DNA of 64,000 bases, taken from Perkinsus olseni. Its lineage: Eukaryota; Perkinsozoa; Perkinsida; Perkinsidae. Shown piece after piece: positions 2,978-61,298 of this stretch. Each line of letters opens with the position of its first letter. Positions within the stretch are counted from its first letter, which is position 1. Below the pieces are notes generated by a model, which ran no database searches, was not told where the DNA came from, and saw only the letters and a list, made by a program, of their open reading frames with translations. Where the stretch lies: positions 91,176-155,175 of the forward strand of contig JABANP010000086.1 in NCBI GenBank assembly GCA_013115135.1, in the 5' to 3' direction. Made by a program: the position numbers and the translations under genes.

Positions 2978-4728
2978 TCAAATAGCAGTCTCATGGGAGG
3001 CACCAGCACTACTGCTTCGAGCTGGGCTACCAACCTCTTCCAGCTCATCAGGCACCCCTCCAGGCGGAGTTACATCGCTTATCAGCTCCGGAGGTACCAC
3101 AAGCCTAGGCTGAGTCTCGGGATACCTCCGTCGAGGAGCTCCAGTCGAGGTCTGCGGGCGGCGGGGACTCCGATGCCTCCTCGTACGACTGCGCGGCCTC
3201 TCTCGAGCACCCTCACGATGATGGTAACTGAGGGGCTCGCACTGTGATGCCTTATCAACACCACCCCAGCACGACCATCGACATGAAGGGTTTCTCATCT
3301 ACTGAACCCCAGAGCGATGAGAACACGGTAGCGACTCCCGACCCTCTTGACCTGGTCGAAGCAGAAGTGCCGGGCCTGCTCCTGCGTGATGGTGATAACG
3401 ATGTCTCCCGCAAGGAGTATATCTCTGAAATAACCTCCTTGAGGCCCCTCACGAGCTCGTCCACTCGGCGTTCCTTGTCGACCAACTCCGCCCTCAGCCT
3501 TGTTCGCTCAGCCTGCCACCACGCTAAGACGACGGAACAGCAGAACCTCGTCGGGCTCACCTCTGATGATTCCGGTCTCCTCCTCCCCCGGCGGCTTCTA
3601 CTATTGGGTCTGCTGCTGCTACGGCTCTCCCCATCCGCTGACCCTATACGGTCTGTGTGGCCCTCCCTTCGACCCCGCGACGCGGCACTCTGGGGCCTTT
3701 GTGCGGTAGAGGAGGATGACGATAATGACGAGGAAGGGCGACACTCCAAAGCGTTGGTGGTGATCTCAGGCGTGTCGGACTTAATCTGATCACCACAACG
3801 GTTTCGCAACAGCAACGAAGCAGCAGTGGCACTTGGTCCTGATCGAACACCCAGTCCGACTCTGCATCGCTCCGCTCGCCTCGACCTCCATTTTCGTCAT
3901 CAATCATCCTCAATGCACTCTCGGGCCGTACCGAGACTACGCTGCCCCTCCCACCAACGTCAGCACCCCTTGCCTCCGTGGCGGGCTCCTCCTGAGATGG
4001 TATCTAATGTCGAAGGCTGCAAGATACAAGTACGGCATACCACTCTATCCGAGGGTAAGCCCAGTGCCTCCTGTATGAACCGTAGCACGACCTGAGCGCG
4101 ACCCTCCAGCGTGGACTGCGGTCTTGCCATGCCTACCAGCTCGCAGTCCCTATCTTCAAGAGGCATGCCACTGATGGCCTTGAAGGAGAACTCCTCACTA
4201 CGGGATGCCTCCTCACAATACGCCAAGAGATCTGCCTCATCGAGCCAAGGAGGCAACGAGTAGCTATCATCGTTTGAGATCTCCTGGAGCAGCCTAAGCA
4301 CCCGGGTTCGATCCCGACCCCTGTCAATTTCCCTCCGGCCTACTTGTTCAGCCCCGCAATAACACTACTTTGTTGCCGCTCATTCTCGCCATTCGCTGCA
4401 GCCTTCCGTATCGTCATGAATGCCGCCAAATTGGGCTGCCACAGAGCATCATCTCCACGTCCTACCACCACCACTACTACCACTACCCCTCCTGAATTCT
4501 CCGGCTCCGATACTAGTGCTATCTCCTCTAGCCGCCGTACCTGCTCCACTGACGTAGTCTCCCTTCACAGACGGCCATCCCCATATCATGCGTAAACGAC
4601 CAAGCTCCCGATCTATCAAGATTCACTCCTTCATGTACCAGCTGATTACTCAGAATACCAGTATACGGGATAACTCAATGTCCAGCGGTTCGAATACATA
4701 CCATCATGAGTGGGCCCAGCGAGTCCAT
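2978..4728 (-). CDS. Hypothetical coiled-coil protein
   Basis: I do not recognise this protein. The proposed start is MDSLGPLMM at 4728, with a GTATGT donor right after it; the stop is near 2978. Exons include a run of about nine valines (4.48 kb), an acidic helix-rich exon (3.96-4.29 kb), a Ser/Arg-rich stretch and a coiled coil rich in E, R and L (near 3.4-3.5 kb). One intron is well fixed: 4294-4343, 50 nt, phase 2, joining ..LN-K-LLQEIS.., and it carries a tRNA 3'-end-like module in antisense. The gaps to both neighbours on this strand are about 110 nt. An alternative is that the part before 4550 belongs to the bestrophin gene as a cytoplasmic tail. Confidence 0.5.
4302..4330 (+). repeat. 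tRNA 3'-end-like module 1 (antisense in intron 4294-4343)
   Basis: Read on the plus strand it has 5-nt arm CCGGG, loop TTCGATC, 5 nt, 7 nt, A, then ATTT. It sits inside a 50-nt intron of the minus-strand coiled-coil gene. Confidence 0.7.
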
Positions 4729-4838
4729 CTCTACAGAGCCGTTGTCTCTGTATCATTCGTTTGGATGATACGAGGGAGGTGAGCCCCGACCGCTCAAGGT
4801 GCGCTAGCCCGAGTGCAAACCATGCTCAATTGGCATAC

Positions 4839-9968: not shown

Positions 9969-10187
9969 ATCCTGGGAGTGGTCCTGAGATTCAGGAGGAA
10001 TTTATTTAACGCGCCCAGTACAACCAATGCAGCATTGTGAAGTCCTGCAGTACGTAGATAGGGTTTCGCTACGCATGCGTCTTAGTTTTCCGACGCTGTT
10101 GGGCTTGGTGTGGTACGAAAACGCTCGGCTTATAGTTCGTATATTCTACCAGGGTCGATCGTTTGAACTTTCGTTTTCATTTCGTAG

Positions 10188-13455
<3,268 letters not shown>

Positions 13456-16383: not shown

Positions 16384-17786
16384 TCAGCCAAACATGTCCA
16401 CCTCTTCCTCCTCTTGCTTCTTCTTGGTCGTCTCGGAGGGGCCGTTCAAGACCGTGGAGCTCTTCACAAACGACATACGGAAAGGGTTGCTGCCGGTGAC
16501 GCTGGGTTTGCTGGCACCCGAGGCGACCTCCATCATCCTCTTCTCCAGTAGCGATCGGGGGGCCGGCCCGGCAGAGCCTGAGTACCCTAGGCCCGGACGC
16601 TCCGCTTCGGCTTCTGCACCACCATAGGAACCATCTAGGTCTGCAAGAAAAGACCCGTAAAATGCCGCGACTGAGAATCGAACCCGCGACCATGCCGTAC
16701 TCATATTGAGGTGTTTAGACTCTCTCATAGCTTCCGTCTCCTCAGTGACCTCTAACTGCTCCAACTCCCTCTCCTCCCTCCTCAGCTTGGCCTCCCGCAA
16801 CCCCTCCTTCCATCCAGTTAACCCCTCCAGTCGCCGCTTTCCGTTCACGCAGCAACGCCGATCGATCCTGCCGGAAAGCAGTCACATCGGGAACCAGATT
16901 TTCCCACCGCCCCTCATCCTCATACTACCTGATACCGTTCAGCGCGAGCCCTCTCTCCTCGAATCTCATCCTCAGTCTTGCCAAACATCTTCCTCCGGGC
17001 ATAGTTACTATGCAGTCCGAAGGCCCCTCCACTGGTCTCCACTATCGGCTGGGCCACAGCAGCTTCGGACTCCCCATCATCGCCCCCCGCTGGGCTCCCA
17101 TTACGGACATCGCACTTCATAAAACACCTCCGACCAAGTTGGATTTGCCCTCGGTTCTTGATTTCAACTTTTTCTCCTCGATCCAGTTCCCGCCCATCCA
17201 CAATGACTAGCCCGTGCAAGGCCTGGATTTGAAAACAATTCTGCTTCTTACTCCAGCTGATCCGGCACTGCTTGGTGGCATGGATATCCGGGAAGGCGCT
17301 AAGATCTGCTATGTGCCGGCCCAGCACGCCTCCAACCGTATCAACCCTCAGAATCTGTTCCGTGCGGTCCCAAGGAGAATCCAATGTCTCCAGAAAGGTT
17401 CTCATCTGGTCATTTTCATCGGCGCCAGCCTCCGGAGTGAAGTGCTGCAGCACCCAGAGCTTCCCTTGTACGGGGAGATCTCTGAATGTCTTCTCAACCC
17501 GCTTGGACAGCTTGAGGTTGGTGACCGTCTCGTCAACTGCTTTGTTGATGGAAACAACCTGCTGTGCGTCCGGAGGAGGCGGTTTGAAGGAAAGATAGAG
17601 CTCAGGGCCACCCGTAGTGAGCAACTCCGCCGGCGGCCGGGGGACGTTCGGTCCGATTTCGCAGGGGTTGGCCAAAGACCAGATGAGTCTCCCTTCCGAT
17701 GAGAGGCTATCATACTCATGCATGAGCACTTGGGGCAGAGTCAAGGAATACAACTTGCCAGTTAACGAGGAGAAACAGTAACCCAT
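16384..17786 (-). CDS. FHA-domain protein
   Basis: A 5' exon of about 287 codons begins at ATG 17786 (MGYCFSSLTGKLYSL) and contains a forkhead-associated phosphopeptide-binding fold around residues 150-230: LGRHIADLSAF for the first strands, an ISWSKK strand, then VDGRELDRGEKVEIKNRGQI with LGRRCF. The G-R-H order fits FHA, although the usual S-x-x-H is not obvious. The C-terminal half is charged (ARRKMFGKTEDEIRGER, then a coiled coil LREAKLRREERELEQLE) and ends EEEEVDMFG. Two introns are placed: one leaving ..RAER before GTATCAGG, and 16641-16700 (60 nt, phase 1), which carries a tRNA 3'-end-like module in sense. The domain is recognised but the protein is not assigned to a named family. Confidence 0.7.
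16658..16687 (-). repeat. tRNA 3'-end-like module 4 (sense in FHA-gene intron 16641-16700)
   Basis: GCGGG, loop TTCGATT, 5 nt, 7 nt TCGCGGC, A, TTTT. The arm pairing is degenerate, but the spacing from loop to T-run is exact. Confidence 0.7.
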
Positions 17787-18203: not shown

Positions 18204-19718
18204 TCACAACAGAGAGTGATAGACCAGCTCTGCAGCCCTCTTCAGTAGCCTCTCTCTATTACCTTCATTTAGCTCTTCAAACAGGATCGATTTCTCAGTG
18301 TTGTCCATCAACCTGTCGAGGAAGTCCTGGATGGTTCTGCCATACTCCACCAACTGGGCCTCGCAGACGGCTTCGCTGTGTTCCCCCTGTATCCGAAGAG
18401 TTCGTTTCTCGGCCTCGCGAAATTTGCCTCACTGACTTAACCGGTACATCATCCTCCTTCCAAACTCTGAATGTGCACGTACTTTCGAGTCACCACCGAA
18501 GGCCTACCGCGTCCCCAACGATATCTATATCGTGCAGCTTGAGCTTGCCATTTGGATCTGTCGCGCCGAGTCTAATGGCCGCGGTCCTCGTCTTGGTCGA
18601 CTGTAGGACGGGAAGGAGAACAGAGCGGGTCAAAGCAGTCCCAGTATTACGATGGTGATAGGAGGGCACAGATAATAATAACTGCCGTTCTGGTGTAGTT
18701 TATCGTGAGCCAAACTCCAGATGAAGGCGGGGACCACCTCCACGTCCACTTCCGTCAAACGCTTCTCCCAAATTTCCCCCAGTATGCCTGAGACGTGCGC
18801 GGCCACGCTCACCAATCCGTCCTCGCCGATGGTAGAAGTAAGATCTGTCTTGGACTGGAGAGCTCGAGTTAGACCTTCTTCTCCCCATAGATCGGTCTGG
18901 CTTTTGCAAGTGGCTTCCGGATCGCTACTGATTCTACCGGGTACAATATCACCAACATCCAGCATGACGTTCATACGGTTGGTGTTATTATATTGGCTGA
19001 GGGGACACGAAAAGTGGACATCATGATTGACCATCGACTGGACATCCTCGTGCTCACCCGTTCCCCCAAACATATATGTAGTCCAGCGCGGTACGCCTGG
19101 GCGTAGGCTTTCCACGACGAACCAGCTGCTTCGCATGGACAATGATGCCACCCTAAGGTAGTTTGAGGGGGCACATGAAGGTGAGTAGAATCGCCAAGCG
19201 CTCACCAGGTTGGACTGCTCCTCAGTAGTCGAAGGACCCACTGGGAAGGTGTAAGAGAGGGAACAACGGTCCTGTCAACCAGGCGATGCATGAGAATAGC
19301 GAGGCCAGAGGAACGCTACCCAAACCCGATACGGCTCCTTCGTCTTCGCGTTAACATCATCCTAAAAAGGTCATTTCAACCGAGACCACGCCTCAATCAG
19401 CCACCAACTGTTACAAGAAAGTAGTACCACACCAATCGCAACTCTGCATAGACGAAAAGGACAAGAGACAGATGGAATAGGAGCGTACTTAGATCTCGAA
19501 CGAAATCTTACTTTTTCGCATTTCCTCCCCATGCACACGAGGCTTCTCAGAACGGATCTGACCCGCTTCGACCCATTTCCCTTCCTGCCCTTTGTATGAG
19601 CGGTGGCACTGCCACCAGCGCTGTGCTGTGCTGCTGCCGATAGTACTGCAGCCATGGCGGCTTCTACGACAGGAACGGTGAGGGCGAGGCCCACTGCAGC
19701 AACGAGGGGACTGCGCAT
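18204..19718 (-). CDS. Tandem secreted-protein family, copy A
   Basis: This is the first (3'-most) of five tandem, same-strand paralogs of a family I do not recognise. It has a signal peptide (MRSPLVAAVGLALTVPVVEA), then a Lys/Arg-rich linker. Later exons carry the family blocks: a Cys-containing strand like CSLSYTF, GGIIVHAKQLV, ALDYIYVWGNG, VMLDVGDIVPGR followed by an A-x-C, LWGEEGLTRAL, VPAFIWSLAHDKL, a CPPI strand, KLKLHDIDIVG, then a helical end with EAQLVEYGRTIQDFL. The stop is at 18204. Exons are separated by short introns at positions shared by all copies. It is expected to enter the secretory pathway; its role is unknown. It is closest to copy C. Confidence 0.7.
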
Positions 19719-20546
19719 GAGAGGAACTACAATGAAGTTGGAAGACAACCTGCCTGACCGAGCGAACTGCAAAGTGCAGCCTCAAGGAGCGATAAGGAAA
19801 GAAAGGAACTTTGAGGGCAGCAAACAGCGCACTTTGAGTAGCGCGCGCCACATATCCAGCCGTTTCGCAAACAGCATATCCAGCCGTTTCGGAATTGGAA
19901 CGCGCCTGCGCGCTTACTCTGGTGGTTATACGGCTCTCTTGCACTATTGAATCTTTCTCATGACCCCCAGTGACACCCTATCACGTACATCTACGGAATT
20001 CTGCAGCAGTCTAACTTCTCATCATGTTGGAACTTCCTGGAGTTTCACCGCCTGGCAGTCTGAGAGCAACCCGGGGCCGAGAAAGGAATGAAAACGTCCA
20101 ACTCGATTTTCCATCTTCTCCGGGTTAATCCGAAAAGACTCAGCTGCTTAGCCGAGGCCGAGCTAGTATTGCCATTGAGTAATTCAAGTCAGTGGAAGCC
20201 CTCGGGAAATCGACTTTCTCAGGGGATCAAGCTCTGTTAGAGTGTCTTGGAGTGGCTCTAAGCCATGACCTCGCGGATTGCATTTCAGAGACTCACAACT
20301 CGGCAACCGAGCACTTGGAGCTGGGCGACGGCGCCGTGGACTCGACCCACAGGAAGACTCTGCACGCTGATGAAAGGCGGCTGAACCACCAACACGTATA
20401 GATCATGTGGACGAGACCCCACAGTAACAATGTGGCAACCAACAACGGAACGGGCATCTTGCCACTGGCTTGAATGACCCTCCCAACCCTTGAACTCAAC
20501 TCACAGTCAACATCTCACACCCAGCACATCATGTTGAACAACGTAT

Positions 20547-25703: not shown

Positions 25704-26194
25704 AATGGAAAAGCCTCAACGCTGAGACATTTCAACCTCCGCGGGATGCAGGGGATTGCTGGAAAAAGTTCTTCGAGCCCAGCCAGTCTTCGCCCGCCCT
25801 ATTTCAAGGGGGCTCGCCTCCTGTTGAGTAAGTGCAGGGATGATGGAAATATTGGCCTCGAGCGGTTCCCAGCCTAAATCTTGCAATCTTGAACCCTCTT
25901 GCTCATCTCAGCATGACAACGTCCGCATAGACCAGCATCACATCCGCAGACCACTTTATAGCATATCGAGATTGAGCTCAATCCTCACGGTTCTAGGAGG
26001 GGCGGGAAGATTTCCCCTTCGTTTTTTCCCAATAAACTCACCCTGACTCACTCCTCTGTCCTGCAGTCACACTGGTAATGTTACTAGTCCTACAGTGTCT
26101 CCTCATTCTGACACCTCCCCAGCAACCCAACCGAGGAAACCTCGGACACCTCACATCTAGTACATCATGTGGGCATGAGTACAGCAAACTATTC

Positions 26195-31893: not shown

Positions 31894-34704
31894 ATGCCCT
31901 CGCTTGATGACGACGCGTCCGCCTATGAAAGCGTGGTATCAGTAAATTCTGTTCTCTTCTCTGCCGGCCTGTTGCTGACCTTTGTATGGGGGTACTAAAA
32001 GTGCACTAGTCCAGAGGTATACGGCCATTCAGGTATCTCGTTAACACTGGCCGGGTCAAGCACATATCACAATCGACGGGAGCGGTTTTAGTTGGCTTCA
32101 TAATGGGCATTGTGGGGTCCTAGGTTCACCAGCGTCGAATGATATTCTCCTTAGGTGATCAGGCTGCTGGGAGTGGCAGACCGAAAGGAGATGTTGGGCA
32201 TGAGTGCGGAACTGTTCTATTTTGTAAGTTAAGCCAGGCTTACCACGTGGAATGAAATCCACGTCTATTAGCTGGCTGAGTAAGGGCGCTCCATGCCCAA
32301 CATCTCTAGGCTCGCGAGGAGGGCAGAGAATGAATGGCCCTTGTGGCGAACGATAAGCCTTAGTGTTTACTAGGCACTCCTACCGCCAATAATATTCGAC
32401 GCGAGTTTCTCGCTTAACACGAACATGTTCATGAACAACCTCACTTCCATTCTAACATTCGCGTTTATCGGTAGTACGGGGCGGACTGCTTACCCACTCG
32501 ACGCGGATTCCGTGGCTGGTATCCTCGACGGCCCAGGCACAACCATATCAGCCTACGTCACCTCAATAGGGTTGTGGACTTTCTCCACCTCTTGGTTGGT
32601 GGGTCTGAAGAACACGGAAGCCCTCCGAGGATACTGCATGACGTTCGGTGCCCTCATATCCAGTAGGCCTTCCTCCTCATTTCCGAGGCAGTACACTCCG
32701 GTGAAGGTACCGATCCAGTGGCAGTGATGGCCCTAATGGGTGGGTCCAAGTACAGACCGAATAAGACCTTGCATTCGCTGGTCTTCGGTGAGAGCGTCCT
32801 TAACGATGCAGTGGCAATCGTGCTCTTCGCGGCATACCAACGTAAGAACGAGCGCTTCTCGGATGACGGCCGGTCGGACGGTCAGGTCTTGGTGCTCATT
32901 TCAGAGGCATACTTCAGCCCACGGGGTACCTCCTCTGGGTTAGCACAGAGCCCGCTATTGCACTTCTTAACAGGTAGTATGGAGAGGTCCCCGGTTCGAT
33001 TCCTGGCGGGAACGTTTGTGAAAAGCCTAGTCCACTTCGAGTACCCTAGTCACATAGTGATGGCAGGAGTGAAGGGCGACCAGTCAACTGGGTCCGGTTG
33101 TCAGTCTATAGTGCCCCAGGCAAAGATACTCATGGGTATCGCCCTTTTCGTAGTTACCTTCGGGTCCGTTATATTCGGTATCCTCAGCGGAGCCCTCGTC
33201 AGTGCCAGCTACCGTAAATCGTGAGTCTGGCCTGTCCATGCGCACGCTGCTGGTCTACATGATCGCGGCTATCAGATCCCTGGTGTCCTACCCCAAGTAC
33301 GAGATAGCGGGTATGTTCCTGTCGATCTACCTCACTTTCTCTTTGGCGGAGTTGTTGGGCCTGAGCGGAATCATGGCGATTTTCTTCTTTGGCTTGGTGA
33401 GAAACCCCACAGCGTCCTCGCTTTGATGCCCGTCCCTTCCCTCAGATGTTGTGTCGGTATAATTTCCACAACCTCTCCAAGCCCTCGCAAGTCGCATCAA
33501 GATTGGTCTTCGAGACTCTTGCTTTCTTTTCCGAGACTCTCGTACGGCGTCGGCGGCTGCTATCATCGTCAGTAGCATTCTCCGTTGGGCCCATCAGGTT
33601 TTCCTCTACCTCGGAGTTGTCGCCTGCATGTCCATAGGCGAGTACCATTGGAACTTAGGTCTCATACTGTTCACTCTCGTCCTCATAGTAAGTCTCATGG
33701 GCTGCGACTGTCTTACGCCGTCGAAGTTGGATCTGCGGTACCCTGACTGAGTCTCGCGCAACCAAATTCCACGACTACCATCCATCGCCCGCTTCCCGTC
33801 AGGTGTTCGCCAGAGCGTGTAATGTGTTCCCTCTGTCGTGGCTCCTCAACCACTCTACCCGGTATGACCCCATCAGTAGGAACTCCCAGATAGTAGCATG
33901 TCGCGCCACCGTGGGGCGACCGTTCTACCGCTCCTCCCTCCTAAGGTCTTGTGGCTTGCTGGTATACGAGGAGCGATCGCCTTCGTGCTGATGCTTCGGG
34001 TACCCTCCAGAGTTGGTGACGATACACGAGACCTCCTCGTTACTACAACAATATCAGTACTACCAACAGCCCCTCTCCCGTGCATGAAAGCTCTTCTCTC
34101 TCGAAAAGTGTTAGTGTTCCTCTGCAGGTTGTGTTCGTAACGACTCTGGTGGGAGGATCTTTGGTGGAACACGTCGCTGTTATGCTGGGGGAACTTCGAC
34201 CTACGGCGGGGCCCCTGCCGACGCAGGAGACAAGCGAACCCGAGATTACTATAACCGATCCTTCTGCTGCCGACCCTGGCCTCTTCTACGTAGCAGTGCT
34301 CCTCCATCACCAGTGGCTCATTGACTCTTTAGGTACCGCCTGGCGCGTCCTCGAGCAGGAGCGCGGCTAGCCGAGTGACGCTGTCTACGGAGCTTGGTGA
34401 GAGGCTCGGTGGGGCCCTTGAGTATGTTGATCGGACATACGTACAGCAGCATCTCGGAGGGGCGGGAGGTGACTCTATCGGAGAGAGCAGCCATCAACGA
34501 GGTGGGGCATCATACCGTCCCGTTTCCCTCTGAGATGGTTAGTCGGGGCCAGCCTGGCTCCGTAACCGTCACCGGCCTTCCGCCGTCTTCTCAGACGAGA
34601 TAAGTGGAGAGCATCCTGCCGAGCCGGGAATTGACATCGACACCTATTATGAAGATAGTGAAGCCAAACGGCTGATGATGGGCCGAGCGGTCGTCTTCGA
34701 GTGA
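31894..34704 (+). CDS. Na+/H+ exchanger (CPA1/NHE family)
   Basis: This is a monovalent cation/proton antiporter of the NHE family, closest in flavour to endosomal NHE5/6-type proteins. The start is ATG 31894. Conserved pieces in order: a first helix SVLFSAGLLLTFVWGY, HISQSTGAVLVGFIMGIVG, LLPPIIFDASFSLN, FGALISSTDPVAVMALMG, FGESVLNDAVAIVLF (the DPV and ND ion-site region), LSGIMAIFFFGL, FETLAFFSETLVFLYLG, and the AGIRGAIAF arginine helix. The charged C-terminal tail ends DSEAKRLMMGRAVVFE at TGA 34702-34704. At least ten introns are seen, 40-60 nt mostly. The intron at 32224-32373 is 150 nt and contains an inverted copy of the preceding exon. The segment 32974-33030 (57 nt, divisible by 3) is a probable intron bearing a tRNA 3'-end-like module. 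The frame is intact throughout the conserved core. Confidence 0.85.
32188..32306 (+). repeat. Exon/intron inverted repeat in the Na+/H+ exchanger gene
   Basis: The exon bases GAGATGTTGGGCATG (32188-32202) recur as the exact reverse complement CATGCCCAACATCTC at 32292-32306 within the following 150-nt intron, with partial extension on one side. The stem would enclose the splice donor at 32224. Inside it, ACGTGGA/TCCACGT forms a second perfect 7-bp hairpin near 32260. Confidence 0.75.
32990..33016 (+). repeat. tRNA 3'-end-like module 5 (sense in exchanger intron 32974-33030)
   Basis: CCCGG, loop TTCGATT, CCTGG (4 of 5 pairs), 7 nt CGGGAAC, then GTTTG. The host segment is 57 nt with GT-AG ends. 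Confidence 0.65.
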
Positions 34705-38569: not shown

Positions 38570-41500
38570 CTAGAAGCGGCCAATACGTTGCCGCTGTTTT
38601 ATGGTACGTGCTAGGACATCACGCTCCTCGAAGGAGAAGGCATCGAGTGGTGGCTGGAGGGACTCGTCGTAGGTTTGACGAATTATGGCGAAGCCCGGCT
38701 GCAGGGTTGAATCTGAAATTGGAACATTGCGAAGAGACCGAATCTCAGAGCGTGTTGCACCTGATCCAGTAGCCGCGATAGTCCCATTCGCGCAAGTCGG
38801 GCAGGTGAAGCTGGTCGCATCCGGGCGACACACCGGCACACTTTTGGTGATACCACTTATCGCACACATCGCAGGTGATCCACGCATCGGTGTCAGTATA
38901 AAGGGTCGTGACAACATTGCAGATCTCACACATATCAGTGTACACCTACAGAGAACTCCAGTGGGAGCCAGCCCGTTTCCTCCAGGCAAGCTTACCGTCG
39001 AGAAGTGTCGACAGCACTCCACGATGTAAAAGAATCTCATCTGAAGGGTGTTGCGGATGTACTCGTCAACTGGTGGTGCCAAGACGGGATTGTCGCATGC
39101 TCGCGTCAATAGAGGAGCATCAGGGAGACGCTCCGGGTGCTCGAAAATGTCAGTGCATCGCAAATTGTGTGTAGCCCAGTATTCCTGAAAACAAAAGCTG
39201 ACTTCCTTCACGTGGCGATGATTATTCCCTCACCAATGTTCGTCGGTCGCCAACCCACGGCCGAGGCCTAGTCCTGTCAATGCCCAAGTTGTGGACGAGA
39301 CATTGCGCACGAACCCTCCAGTCGAAGGCTGCCTCGATGATCGTAATCACTCTGTACTCCACCAGAAGGGCCAATGGCAGGCGATCGATCTTCATCAAAA
39401 CCTCCTGAACAGGGCAGAGCATCAAGTCTCCAGGGGAGCGCCATTCATCTCACCAGTAAGTCGTCCACCGATACCATCACCAACGGCTTCATATCATCGT
39501 CACTCCCTTCCGCCCCTTCACCTTGTCGTGGCGGTGGCTCCATGCTGAGATGCAGCTCCCAGGGCTCGCAGTCCGCAGCCGAACTTCCCGAGCTCCGTCC
39601 TGAGCATGAAGACCCCTCAGCCACGAGAAGCCTGTGGAGCTGCTCACCTTCGACAGAGGATGGCCGAAGGACTTTGAACCTCCTCAGAATAGATCTCACG
39701 CTCTTCATGGTGCGACCCAGCACCCGATAGAGCTGCTGCACCTCCGGCACCTTCAGTCGAAGTCTCCTGCTCCACGCCATCAACGCCACGCAATCAGGCA
39801 CTGAAAGAACAACACGTCAACCGACGGCGAAGCAGGACGGCTCACCAGTGGGCTTGGGACTCTGCAGTCTCGTCATGAGCGCTCCCTTCTCAGCTCGTCT
39901 CTGCTCCGGCGTCATCGTAGCGAGTATCTAAGCAACCAACAGAATACAGCCGGTACGCGTGTAACCATACCAACCCTTCGCCTCTTCCTAATCTCTACTT
40001 CCACCGGTGGCTCCAACCCTCGACACTCTCGGAGCATCCCAAGGCGCCAAGTCCAGGATACGCATCGACCACGGCAGAGACTCCGACGGGGTCTCCGTTG
40101 CCAGCAGCTCCAAAGCCTTGTTCCGCCTGGCCGGTTTCCTAGGCGGGTAGTAAAGGGGAAGGGGGTAAGCGTAGTCCGGGACCCCGTCCACCCCTGGCTG
40201 GAGGCGTCCTTGGACTAGTGAGTCTCGAATGGCCAACTCGATGATATTTCTGATCTCCTCATCGACCTCTTCGTCGCCATCGGGCCCTCCATCAGCAACA
40301 CTAAGACAGTGATGGACCTGAAAGAGATGACCTGTGCTGTGGACCTACACCTGGCCGGACGGGAGCCCACCTGTCGCTCGAGTGTCGACGCCTCCTCTAC
40401 CGCTCTCTCCAATTCCGACAGCAGATGACCATCACAAGTGAAGACTGCATGCCTGAGCTCGGGTGGGCACTCAGAAGGCCCCTCAGAGAAGCTCTCTTCC
40501 GACTGACAAGAAGCGCTCAAGCGCTCGTGAACACCCCAGCGTCACCACCTACCCCAGGAGACTTCAATACCCTGGTGGAGGGAGCATCCACCGAGTGGCA
40601 TATTTGTCTCGCTCTCTCCAAGGTGCATTCCGGGTCGGCCAAGGCCTCGGACAGACGAGCGTTGTCCGATCTAGCGCGAAGCTCTCGCGACAACCACTTG
40701 TCGGCCCCTCCTTGGACGAGCAGCTTCTTCGATTCAGCCAGCAAGCCGCGAAGACTCTCCTCTACAGGATCCGAAGGCGGTGAGCCTGAACGTACGATGG
40801 ATAACCACCCACCTCCGAAGACCGCCGGTTCGATCCCTGGTCTCACCATTTTCTCCCTCAGAGGTAGTCCTAGTAGACCTCCCAGGGCTGCCACCAATGA
40901 TCCGCTTCGTGTAGCTATCAACGATCGCCGTCATCGACTTCCTCCAATTCTCCTTCGATTCGGCGATTTGTTGAGACAAGGAGCGCCACTCTTCCGAAGC
41001 AACGATCAGCTCTCGGCACTTAGCGAATTCTTCATCTTCCACCGAGGCCGCTCGGATGACCTCCTCAGCGCTTTGCAGGGAAATTCTCCTGACGTGAAGG
41101 GACCATCAGATACGCAGAATCAACTCGAGAACGTCCCTTACTTTCTCCTGGACCGTCGGCTCAGGTACAGAGAGTACCACTGGTCAGCCTCGGCAGCTGC
41201 CTTGACGAACTCCCCGTCCACCGGCACTTCAACTTCGAAGGCATCGAGTTGAGCCATGAGCTTCCTCAGAGCACCGAGCGAGAACTGAGCCTCCGAGTCC
41301 GCCTCTCTCTTCGCCAACAGGTCTGTCAGCTCCTGTTGCCATTCCCTTGCAGCTTCCTTCCGCGGCGAGCGCACCAGAGATGAAGCCGACCTGTCCACAA
41401 TACTTTCATCGAGGAGCTCAAGCCGTGTTACCCGACAGATGAAAAAACCATCGACGGCGCGAATGATGACAGAATTCAGCACAGAAGGGACAGTGCGATC

Positions 41501-44500
41501 CAATTTCGTACCTGGGCGAGGAAATCCCTCGTAGCCATGTCTTTGAGAACTGGATCCTCGTCGAGCTCTCGAACATACCCGCAAACCTATACAGGAGTAT
41601 CACCACCCCCAAAGATAAGATCTATCCTACAGCTTCCAATGAGGGTCTCGAAGCCCCTTCCATCCGCTTCTCGTTCTCGTTCCAGTGGAAGAGCTCTCGA
41701 GCCCTCCGCTGCCACTCCAGCAGAGTGTTCACCAACGACCTCAGCGAGCTGCAGAAACAACAACATCGACCGACCCTACATCAAGAGGAAAGGTGTCACC
41801 TCTCGAAAGCCGCCACACGGGACCTCGACCGGTCGACGGCAGCCAGCAACTCCAACAGCTGTCCAAAAAGCGATGACTCGGCCTCCTCTGTGGCCTTCCG
41901 CTTCTGCGATTCGACTTTCTCGGACGGCGCTTCCGCTGGCTCTTCCTTGACATCTTGCTCTCTTGCTTCCACTCGACTTTTCTCCATTCGTTGTACTAGG
42001 TGCAGCGTTCTTCTCTCCAACTCAGAGTTTTCAGTCAGTATGTCATCAATTTTGGCCACTAATTCCGGGACCCTCACCAAGCCACTATCGATCTCCCGGA
42101 TCACCCGACTCAAATGCTGCCAGCCAGAGATCTCTATCGGCCTAGTGACCCTGAGAGAAAAAATACCTGCACCAGGAATCGAACCCGAGACCTCACTCAC
42201 CCCAACAGACCCCGAGCAGCCGACTCGATGCCAGTGAGAGTCGAGATCAGATCCCACTCTCCCTCACAGGTCGAATCTCTAACCCGATAGGATTCGAACT
42301 CCACCACAGCCTCCTCGGTCGAGCTCGAAGATTCCTTGCTATCTTCGACCTTGGCCTCCTCCTTCTCCAAGCTGACTTGCCACCTCTCCTCCCACACAGG
42401 TAAGGACTCGATGAGGGACGTACAGGCCTGCAGCCACAATCAACATCACACGTGGTCTCACCCACAAGACGCCGATTCCCAAGTAATAGTGAAATATTTA
42501 CTAATTTTTACTAATTCTACGACTCGTAACTTAGTAGAAATTTAAATCTAATAATAATAGTTTAATTAAAATTTTGTTCTGTAAAAACCCGTAATTTGCA
42601 AATTTTTCCTGTAAAAACTCGTAATTTCCGAGTTTTCACTGTAAAAACTCGCAATTCACAAATTTTCACTGTAAAAACTCGTAATTTGCAAATTTCCACT
42701 GTAAAAACTCGTAATTTGCAAATTTTCCGTGTAAAAACTCGTAATTTACAAGTTTTCACCGTAAAACCGCCAACGAAAGGCTCACCTTTTCGATCTTAAG
42801 AAGTGTCTGGTCGAACTGCACCGGCTCCTGCGATGGCGGGGTCACCAGTGGCGAGGTTGTCCCCTCTGCCCTCTGCAAAGCCTTCAACCTGCTCGGATAT
42901 CTCCCACTCAGTTCCTCCAATGACGATGAGGTAAGAGGCATCTGACGCGCCATAAGCATGGATCAACCTAAGATACCCTCCGCGGATCAACTTACCGTGC
43001 TGACCTCCCTCCGGACATCCCAGGCCCAGACCTCCTCCCTCATGGCAGTGAGGAGGTCATCGAGAAGGTCCCCAGCCTTAGTCCCGACTATACCAGTACG
43101 CATGTAGTCCATGAAAAAGAAGGAAAGGGCTCGCAGTCCCCCAGCAGGTCGAGGAAACTGACAGCAGACCAAGATTAGTAATGGCGATGATGACGCATTA
43201 ACCCACCACAGCCAGCTCCCCCGAAGGATTCGTCAGCTGCTTCACTCGTGCCTCCCAGGCGTCAACCCCGTCCGCCACCCGACAGATCTTGCTGTAGAGA
43301 ACCTCGTCCCGAAAATTCAACCCTTTGCCGCTGTCACGCAGTTCGACAAAAGTCCTAGAGCTCGGCAGGAAGTCCAGATTCTCCCGGATCTCTCGATCAT
43401 AGAGCGCCACTTGCCATCTTAACTCCTCTAGCAAATTCTCAACGAACGCTGGTCCCTCCGTCCAGCACCACTTCCCGCCTTGGGACTCAGAGAGGGGCCC
43501 TGCTCATCTATCGACAGCCGGTCGCAGCTGACGCAGATCTTTCTCGTGTATCCGACCTCCCAGGCCTCCACCGCCCTCTCAGCTCTCCTCTCCCACTCCT
43601 CGCCCCTCTCGACCGCAGACTTGACACTATTGAGACACTTCGACAAGTCCACTGCCTTAGCTATGCCACTCTGCCTGATCTCCTCCAGTACCATCCTTCC
43701 CTCAACAGCCGGTCTCGGTGCGCCCCTCTAGCAGACGATGGCACCTCTCCTCCCATGCCATCGCTCGCCTCATCAGCGACTCCAATCGACGACATACCTC
43801 CGGTACGCAGACCCGCGGCAGCTGGTAATGCTCTTCCCACAGCTCACGGAGGCCGACTACCGAGAGGGCTCCCTCCACACTCAATACCCTCCACCAGGCC
43901 TTTGCCGCTCAACTGCGCATCGTCCACAGCCAGGGCTCGACTAGCTCGCTCCCGCCAGGCCATGCCAGCGTCTCTCGCCTCCTCCAAGACCCCAACGATC
44001 TCACTCGACTCAGTGGTTTCATTATCCGCCAAACCTCGAGCGTTGAGGTCGTCCAGCAGCTCCATCACTACATGCAGTGGTACACGACTTCTCTTCCCTT
44101 CCAGTTTGGCCTTCGCCCTATCCGTCCACTCCGATAACGCAGGGGTGGCAGAGCTCGAGACCGCTGGCTTCACCGTAGTCGACGCGTCAGTCGAAGACAA
44201 GTGCCTGAAACCAGTCAGAAGATATCACCACACCCAGAGGAGCCGCGGCTGACCTGAGGGCCCTCGCTGGAAGGACTTGCAGGGCCTCCCCTTCCTTCAC
44301 CAGCTGCTCCCTCTCCTCCTTCTGCCATCGGTCTTGGAGCACCCGCGCTTCGAAAGCCTCTGCTGGGGATATCAGACGGTGCAAGGCAGCAACCTGACAT
44401 GACGACCATAACGACCCCGCACACCACCACCCGATCGGATCGTATCACCTGAGGATGCAAACCGTCAAAGATCTTCTCCAGCACCCTCCCCTCGCTCCAC

Positions 44501-45401: not shown

Positions 45402-47172
45402 ACTCCCAAGCGCACCCACCGAGAGGCGGCTTCGTCATGAGCGTCCGCAGCAGCGCTGCAGCCACCGACCCTCGCCAGAATAGTAGCGGAGGAACAGGCA
45501 GCCGAGGGGAGGCCGATCGATCGATGAAGACTAGGAGCGCCTTAGTGTGAGGCTCAGGGCTCGTATAACGTATGACGAGTATCTCAAGGAGTGGTATTGG
45601 GCCTGCACGCATGCACATCTCCACCAAGGCATTCAGATCGGTATGGCGAGGCAAGTAGAGGACGACACGGTTGAACCGGCAAGCTGGGCTGGTGGCCCAA
45701 TCCGTGAGCTCGCAACTCGCCGGATCATAGACTGGCGTCGAGTAACAGCTAGGGCCGCCCCAAGGTGGTGATAAAAATAACAAAGATTTGGTATCACTAG
45801 GCTTGCAAGGCCCGGACATCTCCCTCCAAATACTTCACTTTACCATCGGCGACCCCGTAGACACCGGCATTGTGCCGGGCGACCTCTAGTCGAGCTTCAC
45901 TGATGTCACAGGCCACTACTTGACCGCCTCCCCTCCCGCGGCTCTGCAGTGCGAACTGTATAGCATTGCCGCCGACGCCAGCGCAACCATCAACAACCTC
46001 AGCCGCATCGCCGTAGCGAGCATAGATCTCTTGCGCAGTGAAACGGGCGATGTTCTCAGGTGTCACCTCGAACCATGCGGCCCGGTCCATCTCAATACCC
46101 TCGTCATACCGACTCCACATTATATACCGTCTCTTCCAATCTTCTCGAGAGATCCCTCTTGGCCGTTCTTGCCGATGGGCGTTCGGCACTCGTCTCGGCG
46201 GGCGGCCACAGGTCTTCGGGTCGAACTCCTTGGGAACCATCATGACCAGTGTATCATGGAACATAGCAAACTTAGTCTTTCCCCCACACAGTGACCCCTC
46301 TCCTATGTAACCGAATATAGTACTCCTGTTGGGGACTTCCACATGGCGATGCGGACGAGGGACCATCGGAAGGGACAACTGAGAAATTCCGTGGTGCCTC
46401 ACCTCCAAGCTCTCTGAAATGGTGAGACCCATCCCACTGAGCCACTACAGCACAATACAAGGAGCCCTTTAATGATAAGACGTGAATGATAATACTACTT
46501 AGTGAATCTGTGTACGTTTCAGGAACAACGATGGACCCGGGTTCAATTCCCAGCACCTCCAATTTGAATCACATTCGAGTCCTCCTCCTCCGAGGCATCA
46601 GTATCAGCCGTGCGCTCTCCAAAGGTGGCCATGGTCGTATCTTTCATATCCTCCTCGGACGAAATAGATGATCCACAACCAACCTCAAGGTCCGTGCTCT
46701 GCGATCGACCAAAGATACGCCGCACTCCTCGCCTCCGTCCTGCACTACCTCCACATCCCCCCTCGCCAATGGCTGCTGGGCCGCTACTTTATTAAACCAT
46801 TTCATATCCGAGGCTGCAAGCTGGCCGATCACATGATCCCGAATGCCAAACTGAAGACAATCTGCCTACGCTGAGCACCCCCTAACGGTGACGACTCACC
46901 CGAATCGCCTTGATCGCTCTGCTGGGCTGTCCGCGGACTCGGAGACTTCGGAAGCCCCACTCAATTTCACTCCACGTTAACCCCGTGACAGGCGACCCTT
47001 CAGAGGACGAGTCAATCCATTGGAACCGAGGATCATCTCCCTGCCAACGCACTATGATAGGCGACTCACAACCGCGCTCGCCCGATTGATCGATAAAGCA
47101 ATTGCCCACCTCTGTTTCAGGATCTTCCATCCGCAGCAAATATTGCGACAGGTCGTCCATGCAAAAATGCAT
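45358..47172 (-). CDS. TGS1: Trimethylguanosine synthase (TGS1)
   Basis: This is an SAM-dependent methyltransferase that turns m7G caps of snRNA/snoRNA, and trans-spliced leader mRNAs where present, into trimethylguanosine. Conserved blocks: YIMWSRYDEGIEMDR, WFEVTPENIARF, VVDGCAGVGGNAIQFAL (SAM-binding motif I), VACDISEARLEVARHNAGVYG, LEGDV, and LSPPWGGP (catalytic motif IV) near 45.77 kb. Motif IV follows LEGDV at exactly the family spacing only if one base is removed from the GGG of CCGGGCC near 45.82 kb; otherwise the frame closes. Upstream exons reach a plausible ATG at 47172 (MHFCMDDLSQYLLRMEDP). The intron 46508-46556 (49 nt) contains a tRNA 3'-end-like module whose complement forms the donor. 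The C-terminal stop is uncertain. Confidence 0.82.
46537..46565 (+). repeat. tRNA 3'-end-like module 8 (antisense, spanning the donor of TGS1 intron 46508-46556)
   Basis: CCGGG, loop TTCAATT, CCCAG, 7 nt CACCTCC, A, ATTT. The exon/intron border falls inside the module, so its complement GTGCTGGG is the splice donor. Confidence 0.7.
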
Positions 47173-51003: not shown

Positions 51004-52541
51004 ATGCTCCAGCCGCGGTCGCTCCTCCGCCTCCAGTCGACCAGCAGGCTCCTCATCTCCGCCTCCCGAAGCTGCATCTCAGCTCCTCTTCGCTGCACGC
51101 CACGGCGGTTCTGCACGGGGCCTGTTGCTAAAACTGAGGAAACGAAGCAGCAGAAGCAGCAGCAGCCTGAGAGCAAATGGAGGGGCCCTCTGGCATTTGG
51201 TAGTACAATGGGATACTTGGAGGCGTCACGCGCCGCGAAATTCGGTGGTACCATCATCAGGTGCTGCCCTGGGGTTGGGCCTTGTGGGCCTGATAGCGTA
51301 CGATCCGGGAGTGCTGGACCAGATTAAAAAGGCTATGTCCAACGAGCACTTGGAGAACTCAGGAGACAAGGCCTTTTACTACGTTAGAGAAGAGGGACCG
51401 AGATGAGCTCAAATTTGTGGGGAAAATGATACCGAAAATGGAAGAAGATCAGTTCGATAATACTGATAATATCATCTTAGTGGTACTATCAGAACCTTGC
51501 ACAAGCGCTCCCATTACACCGTCTTTTAGACGTTCAATAGCGAGCAACAGCGGAGAGAAAATCTCTTGCAGCTCGGCAGCTTCATTCGAGATCTACGGGA
51601 TACAGCGCTCGCTAATAGAGTGGCTGAGAAGACCAGCAATCTCGAAAATGTACAACGGTCTCACCGGGGTTCGAACCGGGGTCCTCGACGTATCCCTGTT
51701 GTAGACACACTTCTACTACGCTGTGGCTCCAGGGGCATCACCAGATGATAAGTTGGATTTCATCTTGTACAAGGGGCAGAGGCGGCAGAAGGTGCAGCTG
51801 AGCGGAGAGGGGAGGGAGGCCTCCCAGAAGGTGGTGGACGAAATGGAGAAGTACTGCGGCGGAGCGAAGCGACTGGGGAACGTCGGATAGGGCGTCTCTG
51901 CAGGTTTTTCCAGCCTATGAGTCGGCCGTTGGACGAGCTACCGAAGTTCCCCGAGGAATCTCCCGTAGAGGAGGTCAGCGCTCTCAATTTTAACGATAGA
52001 GTTATTGCAGCCGCAAGACCGGACATGGCAGTTCTATTACAAATGTGATAACGGGATCATGTTCCACAACTCGACCTATTCTGTATCTAGCAGGCGTGGA
52101 CCTTGGATATGTCAGGTATGAGGATTCGTGTTTCCTCTGCTTCCTCATGCGGCCTTTTGTAAACCAACTAGAAGACACCTTCCGACGTGCTCATCTCCCC
52201 ATCACAATAAAACGCCTCAACATCGAGAAGAACGATTTCCCTCTCGGGTAGTGCCTTCCCTCGTCAAGTATACCCTCACCCATCCACCTGTCAGATGTCC
52301 CGTCGCACGAGGCACCCCGACCTTCGTTCTCTATCGCGGTTATTCTCCCAAACCCGAGAAACTAGTAATCATCAGCCTCACTTCCAGAAGGTCATAACTG
52401 ACTTGTCAGGCCGAGTTCCGCCCGAGAGACATTGTGGATCGGATACGGACAGACCTCTTGCATGAGCACCCCGGCATAACGCTATCGGAGCATTTACTAC
52501 GGAAATGGGAGGGCATGGTGAACCAGGTGTCCCAACGGTAA
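51004..52541 (+). CDS. Membrane-anchored thioredoxin-like protein, probably mitochondrial
   Basis: The start is ATG 51004. The first 40 residues are Arg/Ser/Leu-rich without acids, like a mitochondrial presequence. A membrane helix follows (FGAALGLGLVGLIAYDPG). After a charged middle part comes a thioredoxin fold: DMAVLLQMYED, a CFLC redox motif, PFVNQLEDTFRRAHLPI, and the cis-proline strand RGTPTFVLYRG. A C-terminal helix (AEFRPRDIVDRIRTDLL) precedes TAA 52539-52541. Introns: 51200-51260 (with CGCGCCGCGAAATT), 51650-51704 (tRNA T-arm module), 51851-51903 (with GCGGAGCGAAGC), one near 52047-52112, and one near 52249-52294. One surplus base near 51402 (GGACCGAGATGAG) must be removed to keep ..EEGRDELKFVGK.. 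in frame. Likely a disulfide or redox role in the organelle; the family is not named. Confidence 0.65.
51665..51690 (+). repeat. tRNA T-arm-like module 9 (sense in thioredoxin-gene intron 51650-51704)
   Basis: CGGGG, loop TTCGAAC, CGGGG, 7 nt TCCTCGA. There is no T-run at the expected place. GGTTCGAACC is itself palindromic. Confidence 0.55.
51851..51903 (+). repeat. Intron module GCGGAGCGAAGC (thioredoxin-gene intron)
   Basis: This 53-nt intron contains the exact 12-mer GCGGAGCGAAGC at about 51858. Exact copies also lie in three introns of PAP2_C copy A (about 60774, 61065 in reverse, 61395). Confidence 0.7.
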
Positions 52542-53631: not shown

Positions 53632-55112
53632 CTACACTTTTCTTGCCGCTTCAGCCCAATAGTCGGTCTCCAGGTGGTCCCCATGAGGGGTAGCGATCGC
53701 TGCACCGTTCTCCTCGCCGGCGGTGTACGTCCCACCCGGCGACAATTGTGCATGCGGTATGAACTCGGGAGCATCTTTGGACAGCTTGCGGGTGAACTGA
53801 AGAGGCTCTGGCATCTTACCCGAACCTTTACGGCTAGCCTGAAGCAGCAAACTCGACGAGGAGAGGGCTTGGAGGGCACCCCATAGCTCGCTATTCGCCC
53901 CGGTTGTCATCCGTTCCGGGCCCCATACCTTGGCTGCCTTCCCATGTGGTGACATCTCCAATGGAATGACGCTGATCTTTCTCTTCTCTGGTTCGCCATT
54001 TGTTTTCTCTACTTTCTTGGCCGGCTTCTTCTGTTCCTTGGAGTCAGCAGCGGTTTGAGTGGTTTCGCGGGGGGCGGCTATCTTGCCCCTAAAAAAGGAC
54101 ACGCATCAGCCGCGCAGGTCGTCGAATGAAGGTCCACCCGGCCAACTTTTGTCAGTGTCCCAGTATCAGATGCACGGTTGCACGCGTGCGCAAACGGAGA
54201 CGTTCATCCGTGCGACTCCCGATTACGCTGCAATAAGCTTTTCAAGCGCCTTTGGTCCTCCAGGGAAGTGGTGATACTTAGTAACTGAAAGTTCCATGGA
54301 GAGGCTGCTATGAGAAGCAGAGAATAACAGCTGCGGGATTCGAACCCGCGCCCTTTCGGACTAGCGCCTGAAGCTAGCGCCTTAGACCGCTCGGCCAAAC
54401 TGTCGCTGAAATTTACGCATATAACTCACCTTGGACGTTGGTTGGAATGAACTTTCCGCCCTTCAGAGAAAGCTCGAAGGTAACTTCATCGTCAGCCGTC
54501 GGGTACCTCGAAGATTGGATCAATTGACGATGTAACTGTGCCGGGTGAAACACCGCCACCCCGGCGCCTGTCCCGAATTTACCAAAACTCTTTCCCTCCA
54601 GAATCTTTGAAAGAATCCTTGTTGACTTCCAAGTCACCCTTCACCTCGGAAGAGGTTATCATGCCCCGACCCCGCTTGACCCAGAACCTTTTAAATCCGA
54701 CCTTCCGCCAAGCACCATCATCGTCGTTTCCGCCACAACGTGAAACGAGACCGTCCGCCCTACTCCATCCTCACCATTGGATCCATCCGGTGTATCGAGA
54801 AGGTCCTTCGGTCTTGGACGGAGCGCTGCTTTCCGGAGACTTTTCAGCTGTCGGAAGATCAGCAGTGGCGGCAGGTTTGGTGCTTGCATCCTGCTTGACG
54901 TCGCTGGTCTTGCCTTTGGTCGAACTACCAGTTGCCGCCTTCACGTCACTCTTTTCCGTCGATTCCTCCGTTGCTTTTTCCTTCTTTGATGCAGTAGGAG
55001 AGTTCGCAGCAGTAGTAGGAGCCGTGATACCCTCCTGGTCTGCTTTCTTCGTCACCTTCTCCCCAGCCTTGGTGGCGTTGGTCACGCGTTTGCGTGTCTT
55101 TGGTGTCGGCAT
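53632..55112 (-). CDS. Cold-shock-domain protein with PAM2-like motif
   Basis: The start is ATG 55112 (MPTPKTRKRVTNATKAGEK). About 110 residues of Lys/Ser/Thr/Ala-rich, low-complexity sequence precede a cold-shock-like OB fold: RFWVKRGRGMITSSEVKGD, AVFHPAQLHRQLIQSS (second RNA-binding strand) and DDEVTFELSLKGGKFIPTNV. Between the first two, one T of a TTTT run near 54.58 kb must be dropped to keep frame. After an intron at 54089-54429 (341 nt, unusually long, containing a tRNA gene) comes a C-terminal region with KLSKDAPEFIPHAQL, which matches the (L/N)-x-x-x-A-x-E-F-x-P pattern of PAM2 motifs that bind the MLLE domain of poly(A)-binding protein. The stop is at 53632. It is probably an mRNP protein in translation or mRNA stability. 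Confidence 0.6.
54325..54404 (-). tRNA. trnL(CAG): tRNA-Leu(CAG), inside an intron
   Basis: A full class-II tRNA fold is visible. The acceptor is 7 bp (GACAGTT with AGCTGTT, two G-T pairs). The A box is TGGCCGAGCGG. The anticodon stem is CTAGC/GCTAG with loop TTCAGGC and anticodon CAG. The variable arm is extended, and the T-arm is GCGGG-TTCGAAT-CCCGC with a perfect B box. The discriminator is A. It lies within, and on the same strand as, the 54089-54429 intron of the cold-shock gene. A strong T-run is not immediately downstream (TTCTCT). Confidence 0.92.
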
Positions 55113-59462: not shown

Positions 59463-59929
59463 CGCCTCGGCGTAGGGCCCCCACTCAGGGTCAACACAGC
59501 ATCACCATTTCGTTAATAGAAGAGCAATATCGTAATCACAACAGTGTGGGAGTCATTACCAAGGAATAGAGTGATGTTACTGATGATGCTACCCAATAGG
59601 GATAATTCATACCACTCACGTGCCAACGGACGCGAGATTACAGCAAACGGAGCACTGCTGCCGCTGCCTCGCAATAATATTAGAATGCCGAGGCAGCGTG
59701 AGAAATTTTACAAATGGTAGGTCACGGGAGGTTTGCCGGTCGAATATGAAAAACTTTGATGGTAGTGCCAAGACGGACTCTGATGTTAGTCATAATACTT
59801 GTCAACAACGAGGAGAGTAAAATTTGGTACGGCTGGCGTAGTCGCGACCTTCATAAAATCTATTATAGTACGGTTGCCACTCATTTACCTGAAAGACACT
59901 CAAAATAACCAAGACCACCACCGAAGGCT

Positions 59930-61298
59930 TCATCCGCCACCTGTGGGCTGTGGAGATTCGCCTAGTTCCAAGTCCCTGTCTCCAGGAGACGTCCTTGTAC
60001 TGACCGAGGATATCTTCTGATGCTGACTGCTACCACTGCCAGTGCCAGGAGAGGGGGCCGCTGTGTGATACCCTTCGGCAGCACCCTCTTCCTCATCATC
60101 AGAGACTCCCGGCGATGGGATTGACTCATCGTCCAGTCGGAAGTCGTTAGGGACCTGAACATCATCCATACCGTAACTTACCCAACTTTCGGAGACCTAC
60201 GAAGTGAGCGAAGGTGACCCACATGCAAGGCACTGCGTAGGCCGCAACAACCTGGAAAGAGAAAACAATGGCGGTAGCTTTACCAGGGCGTCGAGGGAGA
60301 CCTACCACGTCAACACTATAGTGTGACCGAGAGGCCACGATAAGGAATCCTTGCAAAATAGTAAGCAATAGCAAGAATATCTTCAGATACATGTTACGGC
60401 TGTATCGGACTGAAGCAACAAGAGGATGGTCCCCGGTTCGAACCGCAGATGGGGCATTTCTATTACATATTCCGCATGTGACAATGATCGTGTACATCAT
60501 ATGGCCCGAGAATATGAGGTCACTACAGCCGCCAGATGTGAAGAGCCTAGTGAGGATGACACCCCAGTCTGCTGGTGGATTGAACTCCTCCTCAGCGCAA
60601 TGTTGTGCCGAACCCGGCAGTAACTGACGAGAAGCGTCATGCCATGAAAGAGGGACTTCGATGAACTTACTGTAACCATGAAAGTGATAAGTCGAGCATA
60701 AGTAGCCAAGCTAGCTACAACACCCCACCGCCAGAGCATATTCATGGCGCCTGAAAAAGGCACAAAAATAGGCGGAGCGAAGCAGCAGCGCATCTGAGCA
60801 CTCCTTACGATGAGGAAAGGGAAAGAAGAGAGGTCGCAGTACATAACCCACACCCAAAATCAAGCTCAAGTAGTTTGTAACATCACCAGGAGCCACCTGA
60901 AAATACCGGAGAAAAATGACTACGAACATCACTTACGGAACAGTATTACCGCTGCATCAACGAGGCCAGTGCCGAACCACTCGAAAGGGAAAATCATGGA
61001 TTGGATTGCCTGGTCCCTTATAAGGGCCGTAACTGAGCAAGGAAAATGACAGGCGACCCAGCTTCGCTCCGCTTAGCTTACACTTCATATTTTGCAGCAT
61101 AATAGTAAGCCATATTATGCACCCAATTGTGCACGATAAGTGTCAACACAAACCACAAAATACCCCACCTGAAAAGCAGCCCTTATCCGAATCCCTCCGA
61201 CCCTGACAGACCCACCATGCTCCCTTCTTCAACACGGCCCACTCCAACGGCCAAGCCTCTTTGATGTAATCAATTCTAGCTCGCCAGATCGCCTTCAT
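59930..61298 (-). CDS. Sphingomyelin-synthase-like (PAP2_C) protein, copy A
   Basis: This is an integral membrane phosphotransferase of the sphingomyelin synthase/PAP2_C family. The family moves a phospho-head group onto ceramide; the actual substrate here is unknown. Hallmarks: a C-x-D...SGHM segment before an IIVTCGI helix (the D3 motif with a catalytic His) and SRSHYSVDVV (the D4 motif with His and Asp). Multiple helices are visible, including TILQGFLIVAS and VVAAYAVPCMWVTFAHFVG. The cytosolic tail is acidic and Ser/Pro-rich, with a stop at 59930. Introns: one near 60730-60790 and one at about 61015-61065 each carry the 12-mer GCGGAGCGAAGC or its complement; 60410-60466 carries a tRNA 3'-end-like module. 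One surplus base near 60992 breaks IHDFPFEWFG. The start is the ATG of MKAIWRARIDY; an upstream exon is possible. Confidence 0.72.
60432..60459 (+). repeat. tRNA 3'-end-like module 10 (antisense in PAP2_C copy A intron 60410-60466)
   Basis: CCCGG, loop TTCGAAC, 5 nt, 7 nt ATGGGGC, A, TTTC. It is absent from the homologous intron of the neighbouring paralog. Confidence 0.65.

Follow-up and report, generated by a model that had tools for sequence, protein, structure and literature searches.

Transfer RNA (tRNA)-derived short interspersed elements (SINEs) occur as dispersed copies with subfamilies, are longer than 100 nt and carry a B box and an RNA polymerase III (Pol III) terminator, while extra-TFIIIC (ETC) sites are B boxes without a tRNA gene. 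Here we describe modules of about 35 nt with the layout of a tRNA 3' end that recur in short predicted introns of Perkinsus olseni, a genus to which the Amoebophrya lineage is related. They were noticed, by a reading made from the letters alone (the sequence-only reading), in a stretch of 64,000 nt of contig JABANP010000086.1 (assembly GCA_013115135.1, positions 91,176 to 155,175 of the forward strand; C845:91176-155175 in our scan), hereafter the window, which encodes a transporter with 92% identity to a Perkinsus marinus protein. Introners, as described by Gozashti et al. 2022 (PMC9860276), are recognized by similarity near both ends of both introns and are mostly consistent with DNA transposition; tRNA, SINE and Perkinsus are not mentioned in the main text of that paper. 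PMC7789003 describes, in the parasitic dinoflagellate Amoebophrya, spreading intronic elements with inverted repeats of 8 to 20 nt and hairpins, more than 60% of introns being other than GT-AG, and PMC7722341 describes nimtRNAs, full cloverleaves of mitochondrial derivation in human introns. A literature search that covered few subscription papers and no preprints returned no recognizable description of introns or introners made from tRNA 3' ends.

The modules share with tRNA-derived SINEs the B box, which was found, as well as the terminator, the dispersal and the subfamilies, but they lack an A box and a tRNA 5' half, measure only about 35 nt and are concentrated in introns. They resemble ETC sites in having a B box without a tRNA gene and add to it a terminator at a fixed spacing. 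Like the introners of PMC9860276, they are short similar introns across unrelated genes, in both orientations, with the element making up most of the intron; the modules differ in that the ends of the similarity are not fixed and the source is a tRNA 3' end. They are like the Amoebophrya elements of PMC7789003 as spreading intronic elements, but lie in GT-AG introns, have a tRNA-derived core and show no excess folding. They share with the nimtRNAs of PMC7722341 a tRNA derivation and a place in introns, but they are 3' fragments whose T-stem pairing is at the level of chance.

In the window, GGTTCGA occurred 22 times, compared to 8.9 ± 2.9 in shuffled sequences (maximum, 19), and GGTTCGATYCC with at most one mismatch occurred 11 times, five of them exact, compared to a shuffle mean of 2.3 (maximum, 7). 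In the whole assembly (61.48 Mb, 968 contigs), GGTTCGATYCC gave 1,692 matches (870 + 822) and its reversed-pattern control 45 (25 + 20). Appending ten arbitrary bases and ATTT (GGTTCGATYCC-N10-ATTT) left 413 matches (215 + 198) against 1 in the control, and allowing one mismatch in this pattern gave 1,566 against 3. When the spacer was varied from 5 to 15 nt, 533 matches were obtained (control, 1), 413 of which had exactly ten bases, and a spacer of eight bases gave a single match. N10 followed by ATTT is the spacing of a tRNA 3' end and then a Pol III terminator. Freeing position 59 of the T-loop raised the count to 698 (control, 2) from the 413 obtained with T alone, thus indicating more than one type of tRNA T-loop among the modules, several in all. 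The phenomenon was therefore confirmed as real, and it extends over the whole genome, far beyond the window, although the window figures of the sequence-only reading were slightly generous.

The anatomy of the modules was determined on an alignment of 56, which includes three real tRNA genes (Leu, Ser and Glu) and from which one of the near-identical duplicates L018 and L019 was removed. Conservation sets in abruptly at tRNA position 44 (A38 G43 G47 T34 C50 at positions 44 to 48), and in the 32 columns upstream the most frequent base reached at most 25 of 56, leaving no conserved column for an A box, an anticodon arm or the tRNA 5' part. A module thus begins at about position 44 (AGGTC), takes in the T-loop/B box and the 3' strand of the acceptor stem and ends with A73 and the following Ts, about 35 nt in all. 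Among the 100 genome-wide matches listed, the N10 strings comprised 90 distinct sequences with a mean pairwise identity of 0.39; 70% had a neighbor identical at 8 or more of the 10 positions, compared to 42% (maximum, 58%) in column shuffles, and C occupied tRNA position 72 in 80. One 33-mer of a subfamily had 30 copies at three or fewer mismatches, compared to 0 in the control. The descent from tRNA 3' ends advanced by the sequence-only reading is thus upheld by the peak at ten bases before ATTT, AGGTC at positions 44 to 48, the frequent C72 among the matches listed and the occurrence of all variants at position 59.

T-stem pairing showed no excess (27, 39 and 33 of the 56 modules, compared to 27.6, 37.1 and 27.9 after shuffling), and the modules as a set are therefore linear tRNA-derived sequence and not folded T-arms. 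The B-box core and T-run change at about 16% per site (413 exact to 1,153 one-mismatch matches over 15 fixed positions), a value that is partly due to ascertainment. Judged from these sequences, the T-stem and the surroundings look less well kept than the B-box core, which would be compatible with a B-box/TFIIIC role.

Real tRNA genes were considered as an identity for the modules and rejected: in 30 loci, ARAGORN called no tRNA where the module lies, and Rfam found a full tRNA at 1 of 20 loci. This one (L022) scored 40 bits with three acceptor pairs broken and was missed by ARAGORN; at L008 and L012, Rfam returned weak matches to a tmRNA 3' end. Neither a functional-tRNA cloverleaf (by ARAGORN, Rfam and T-stem pairing) nor a kept cloverleaf of the nimtRNA type (by these and by folding) was found in the modules. 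On another contig, five modules are regularly spaced within C25:66712-74124 (three intervals of 1,763 nt followed by one of 2,099 nt), and around the first of them (L052) lie two tRNA-like stretches outside recognizable coding sequence.

The location of the modules was assessed with a simple gene model, self-trained on 264 kb (the window and C1:1-200000) from sequence only, which predicted 841 introns, 697 of them of at most 110 nt. The model misses genes, fuses adjacent genes, can over-extend genes and yields a few long introns, perhaps mere connectors (3 of 20 intron calls at the motif-chosen loci described below were 263 to 286 nt). A module profile, for whose training we used 41 modules lying in neither the window nor C1:1-200000, found 16 matches of at least 18 bits, our threshold, in these held-out 264 kb, whereas the reversed control found 0. 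One match was a tRNA-Leu gene; the other 15 fell into short introns (11), longer introns (2, both antisense), a predicted exon (1, at 32998) and sequence outside genes (1). Since predicted short introns make up 13.9% of the bases, 11 of 15 is a marked enrichment (p = 3e-7). At 30 further loci (L002 to L031), which were picked by motif and are not a random sample, 31 matches, with both L018 and L019 counted, were distributed as 16 in introns in the sense orientation, 4 in introns in the antisense orientation, 11 outside predicted genes and 0 in exons.

Among the 13 module introns that the profile found in the 264 kb, our unbiased sample, eleven measured 49 to 62 nt and two 156 and 159 nt. Their median was 55 nt, compared to 51 nt for all 841 predicted introns; a module of about 35 nt put into an intron of about 50 nt would be expected to give about 85 nt. 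Both orientations occur, as the sequence-only reading had stated, with 6 sense and 5 antisense short-intron modules found by the profile. In the two location counts together, sense exceeded antisense by 22 to 9 (p = 0.03), or by 22 to 11 (p = 0.08) when the two longer antisense introns were added. In sense modules, A73 and the T-run are roughly 6 to 27 nt away from the intron end, which is where a branch-point A and a polypyrimidine tract would lie, and they may act as such. GGTTCRA was present on the sense strand of only 12 of the 697 short introns.

A set of 25 clear short introns was picked by hand and used for flanks, folding, similarity pairs and spliced reading; it does not contain a second CK2-alpha intron (92 nt) or the introns of L019, L030 and L031 (263 to 286 nt). 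Within introns, the median flank was about 8 nt ahead of the module and 16 nt behind it, and the lengths of the 5' and 3' flanks correlated at -0.52 (n = 23) or, for introns of at most 70 nt, at -0.39 (n = 22), in a table in which the antisense introns L004 and L017 were scored as sense and one window intron was omitted. Exons that follow predicted introns often begin with GT (G, 57%; T, 48%), so that AG|GT tends to occur at both intron ends.

In the window, the sequence-only reading had counted ten module sites and named their hosts, and the assignment below is our own mapping of those hosts to coordinates; the gene labels are those of that reading, DDX41 alone having been tested. Profile matches in the window lie at 4305, 12716, 16684(-), 32993, 40827, 42185(-), 46540, 51677(-) and 60435 and at the tRNA-Leu gene. 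The features are as follows.

4294..4343, minus strand: antisense module GGTTCGATCCC at 4305(+) in a predicted 50-nt intron of the coiled-coil gene
12696..12757, plus strand: sense module in a 62-nt intron of DDX41, with the junction VLE|YLLLKG supported by homology
16641..16700, minus strand: sense module in a predicted 60-nt intron of the FHA gene
32984..33018, plus strand: module in the exchanger gene, in a stretch called exon by the gene model that may be exon or intron
40786..40846, minus strand: antisense module in a predicted 61-nt intron of the PHD gene
42151..42200, minus strand: sense module in a predicted 50-nt intron of the PHD gene
46414..46572, minus strand: antisense module GGTTCAATTCC at 46540(+) in a predicted 159-nt intron of the TGS1 gene
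51650..51704, plus strand: antisense module GGTTCGAACCC at 51677(-) in a predicted 55-nt intron of the thioredoxin-like gene
54325..54404, minus strand: tRNA-Leu(CAG) gene in a predicted 145-nt intron (54285-54429), on the same strand as the host gene
60410..60466, minus strand: antisense module in a 57-nt intron of PAP2_C copy A
62567..62950, minus strand: 384-nt intron of PAP2_C copy B that carries no module, its position matching the module intron of copy A

The independent profile recovered nine of the ten sites; the tenth, which we take to be 13764(-), scored below threshold, has no T-run at tRNA spacing and lies within a predicted exon. Seven of the nine lie in predicted introns of 50 to 62 nt and one (46540) in a predicted intron of 159 nt; the exchanger site, called exon by the gene model, may be either. 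As for the tRNA spacing, A73 is present at seven of the nine sites, at least three Ts follow it directly at six, A-ATTT is found at two, and 51677 reads GTT.

All four tRNA genes called by ARAGORN in the window and L002 to L051 lie within predicted protein genes, which the model may over-extend (window, 54285-54429; L045, 6209-6290; L051, 6763-6834; L023, 772-845). Those for Leu, Ser and His are in predicted introns, and the one for Glu is in a stretch of a dynein gene modeled as exon and introns, which is probably one intron.

Protein homology supports, at the level of sequence comparison, the splicing of five module introns, the joined exons matching solved proteins without interruption across the junction in CK2-alpha, DDX41 (in the window), eIF4E, the kinesin motor domain and the dynein heavy chain. 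In both CK2-alpha and eIF4E, a module-like core is present in two predicted introns.

We then compared the module introns with one another. At E ≤ 1e-5, the level at which at least four similar introns in unrelated genes count toward introners, 22 of the 300 pairs among the 25 module introns were similar, involving 17 introns. The control gave 31 of 237,705 pairs, involving 62 introns, and the 15 control pairs listed all reach the end of the exon flank, as overlapping or duplicated neighbors would. The similarity of the module introns is not an independent result, as they were picked by motif and by hand and their host genes may include paralogs.

We propose, with a probability of roughly 0.47, that the modules are dispersed, SINE-like pieces of tRNA 3' ends that became introns. 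The family would have been SINE-like, made up of subfamilies of copies of about 35 nt that carry the terminator T-run, and in spreading, possibly through Pol III transcripts that were reverse transcribed, it would have reached protein genes. GT and AG close by would then have been recruited as splice sites, giving an intron of the usual length of about 50 nt that is mostly module, and in sense copies the T-run would serve as the polypyrimidine tract. The modules may work like introners.

Paralogs were compared at three of the homology-supported sites. Of the 13 other contigs compared at the dynein site, 10 match across the junction without extra length, although two of the ten (C501 and C72) contain stops and a third (C46) extends only 14 residues past the junction; C292 and C298, outside the ten, are uninformative. 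All four paralog matches at the eIF4E site pass without extra length, two of them stopping 10 residues past the junction, so that two of the four are clear. At the kinesin site, none of the 17 matches has room for an intron, clearly so in three (C445, C168 and C290), which extend well beyond the junction and are free of stops. We placed the junction residues used here (about 57, 44 and 61) by hand and aligned the codons of PAP2_C and C59 in the same way.

Several observations weigh against intron creation by such elements. Stops interrupt five of the 17 kinesin matches, and nine finish no more than 12 residues past the junction; these nine decide nothing, because the query's own intron-bearing gene runs 10 residues past by run-on. 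In the dynein paralog C59, an intron of about 250 nt that carries no module lies one base away, and the 384-nt module-free intron of PAP2_C copy B shares codon and phase with the module intron of copy A. General intron turnover could also explain the absences, the comparison having covered module introns only. In only 1 of the 22 similar intron pairs did the similarity come as close as 10 nt to each of the four ends; the similarity ends are thus not fixed to the intron ends, and the modules are therefore not filed as introners. Clean target-site duplications were not found around 53 modules but only hinted at: the longest string shared by the flanks averaged 4.40, compared to 4.08 ± 0.12 in mismatched pairs, 0 of 200 shuffles reaching 4.40, and the excess may partly reflect the AG|GT context at both intron ends. 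The introner-like origin suggested by the sequence-only reading is accordingly mixed in its fortunes, favored by the usual intron length and by the absence of introns from several dynein, eIF4E and kinesin paralogs, and disfavored by the unfixed ends and the shared PAP2_C position.

Because the PAP2_C intron position is shared with a module-free paralog, capture by older introns is a serious rival, which we rate as possible rather than probable. Here, tRNA-derived pieces would have entered existing introns that were later trimmed to the preferred length of about 50 nt, leaving mostly module. Besides PAP2_C and C59, this would account for the variable position of the module within introns, for the negative flank correlation, which is expected if total length is held, and for the two long introns (156 and 159 nt) among the 13 of the unbiased sample, and tRNA genes likewise sit in predicted introns. 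Capture would demand, however, precise trimming in which the 35-nt module survives, given that 11 of the 13 introns are 49 to 62 nt, and it must contend with the several paralogs that have no intron at the three sites compared. We consider it unlikely that the modules are selected B-box sites, in which a linear B box and terminator bind TFIIIC or drive short Pol III transcripts and introns simply tolerate them. The preferential retention of the core and T-run, with T-stem pairing at chance and diverse N10 strings, and the presence of both orientations speak for such sites; the conservation of the core is nevertheless partly ascertainment, the patterns having been chosen by the B box, and TFIIIC binding alone needs no terminator at fixed spacing. 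Retention at fixed positions would fit either promoter retention in the source elements or use by the host as TFIIIC sites.

Human nimtRNAs are reported to aid splicing; a similar aid at the RNA level from the modules, through a hairpin of the T-arm or a fold like that of a tRNA, could draw on the excess of sense over antisense modules (22 to 9, p = 0.03, or 22 to 11, p = 0.08) and on the T-run ahead of the 3' splice site. The T-stem, however, pairs at chance, the folding z-score was -0.33 for the 25 module introns compared to -0.02 for 150 sampled others (p = 0.12), and the sense GGTTCRA is found in only 12 of the 697 short introns. Since modules also occur antisense in introns, a signal acting at the RNA level only is rejected; the helper hairpin, which the sequence-only reading had raised, found no support in these comparisons and is very improbable. 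Chance or a coding artefact, for which nothing spoke and which is refuted by the genome-wide counts (413 versus 1 and 1,692 versus 45), is negligible.

Three further observations were made. GTATCTT, the most overrepresented 7-mer of the predicted short introns, forms the perfect palindrome GTATCTT-N14-AAGATAC, of which the 264 kb contain three copies with equally spaced arms (C1 80382-80409, 95433-95460 and 131914-131941); three shuffles, which covered only the window, contained no copy. On the minus strand of the window, AT-rich repeats (GAGTTTTTACAGTG...) at 42624-42762 adjoin the PHD gene model, with weak Rfam plant-miRNA matches below the cutoffs. Also on this strand, 18600-30800 encodes a predicted tandem protein family, a CSLSYTF...GGIVVHAKEL-type domain being common to three adjacent gene models.

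Going beyond the proposal of SINE-like pieces that became introns, tRNA 3'-end fragments might form a mobile, intron-making class, a suggestion that we regard as plausible but distinctly tentative. Truncated, oligo-U-tailed Pol III transcripts would be reverse transcribed into exons and be spliceable at once, since the terminator would double as the polypyrimidine tract; these introners of a tRNA-derived kind would account for something like a thousand introns or more in Perkinsus. The origin of new spliceosomal introns is an old open question, and a source that derives from tRNA and brings its own polypyrimidine tract would, if true, be a different and simple route to an intron. With 413 exact copies, or 1,566 when one mismatch is allowed, in a genome of this small size, the model is directly testable across Perkinsus strains and species.

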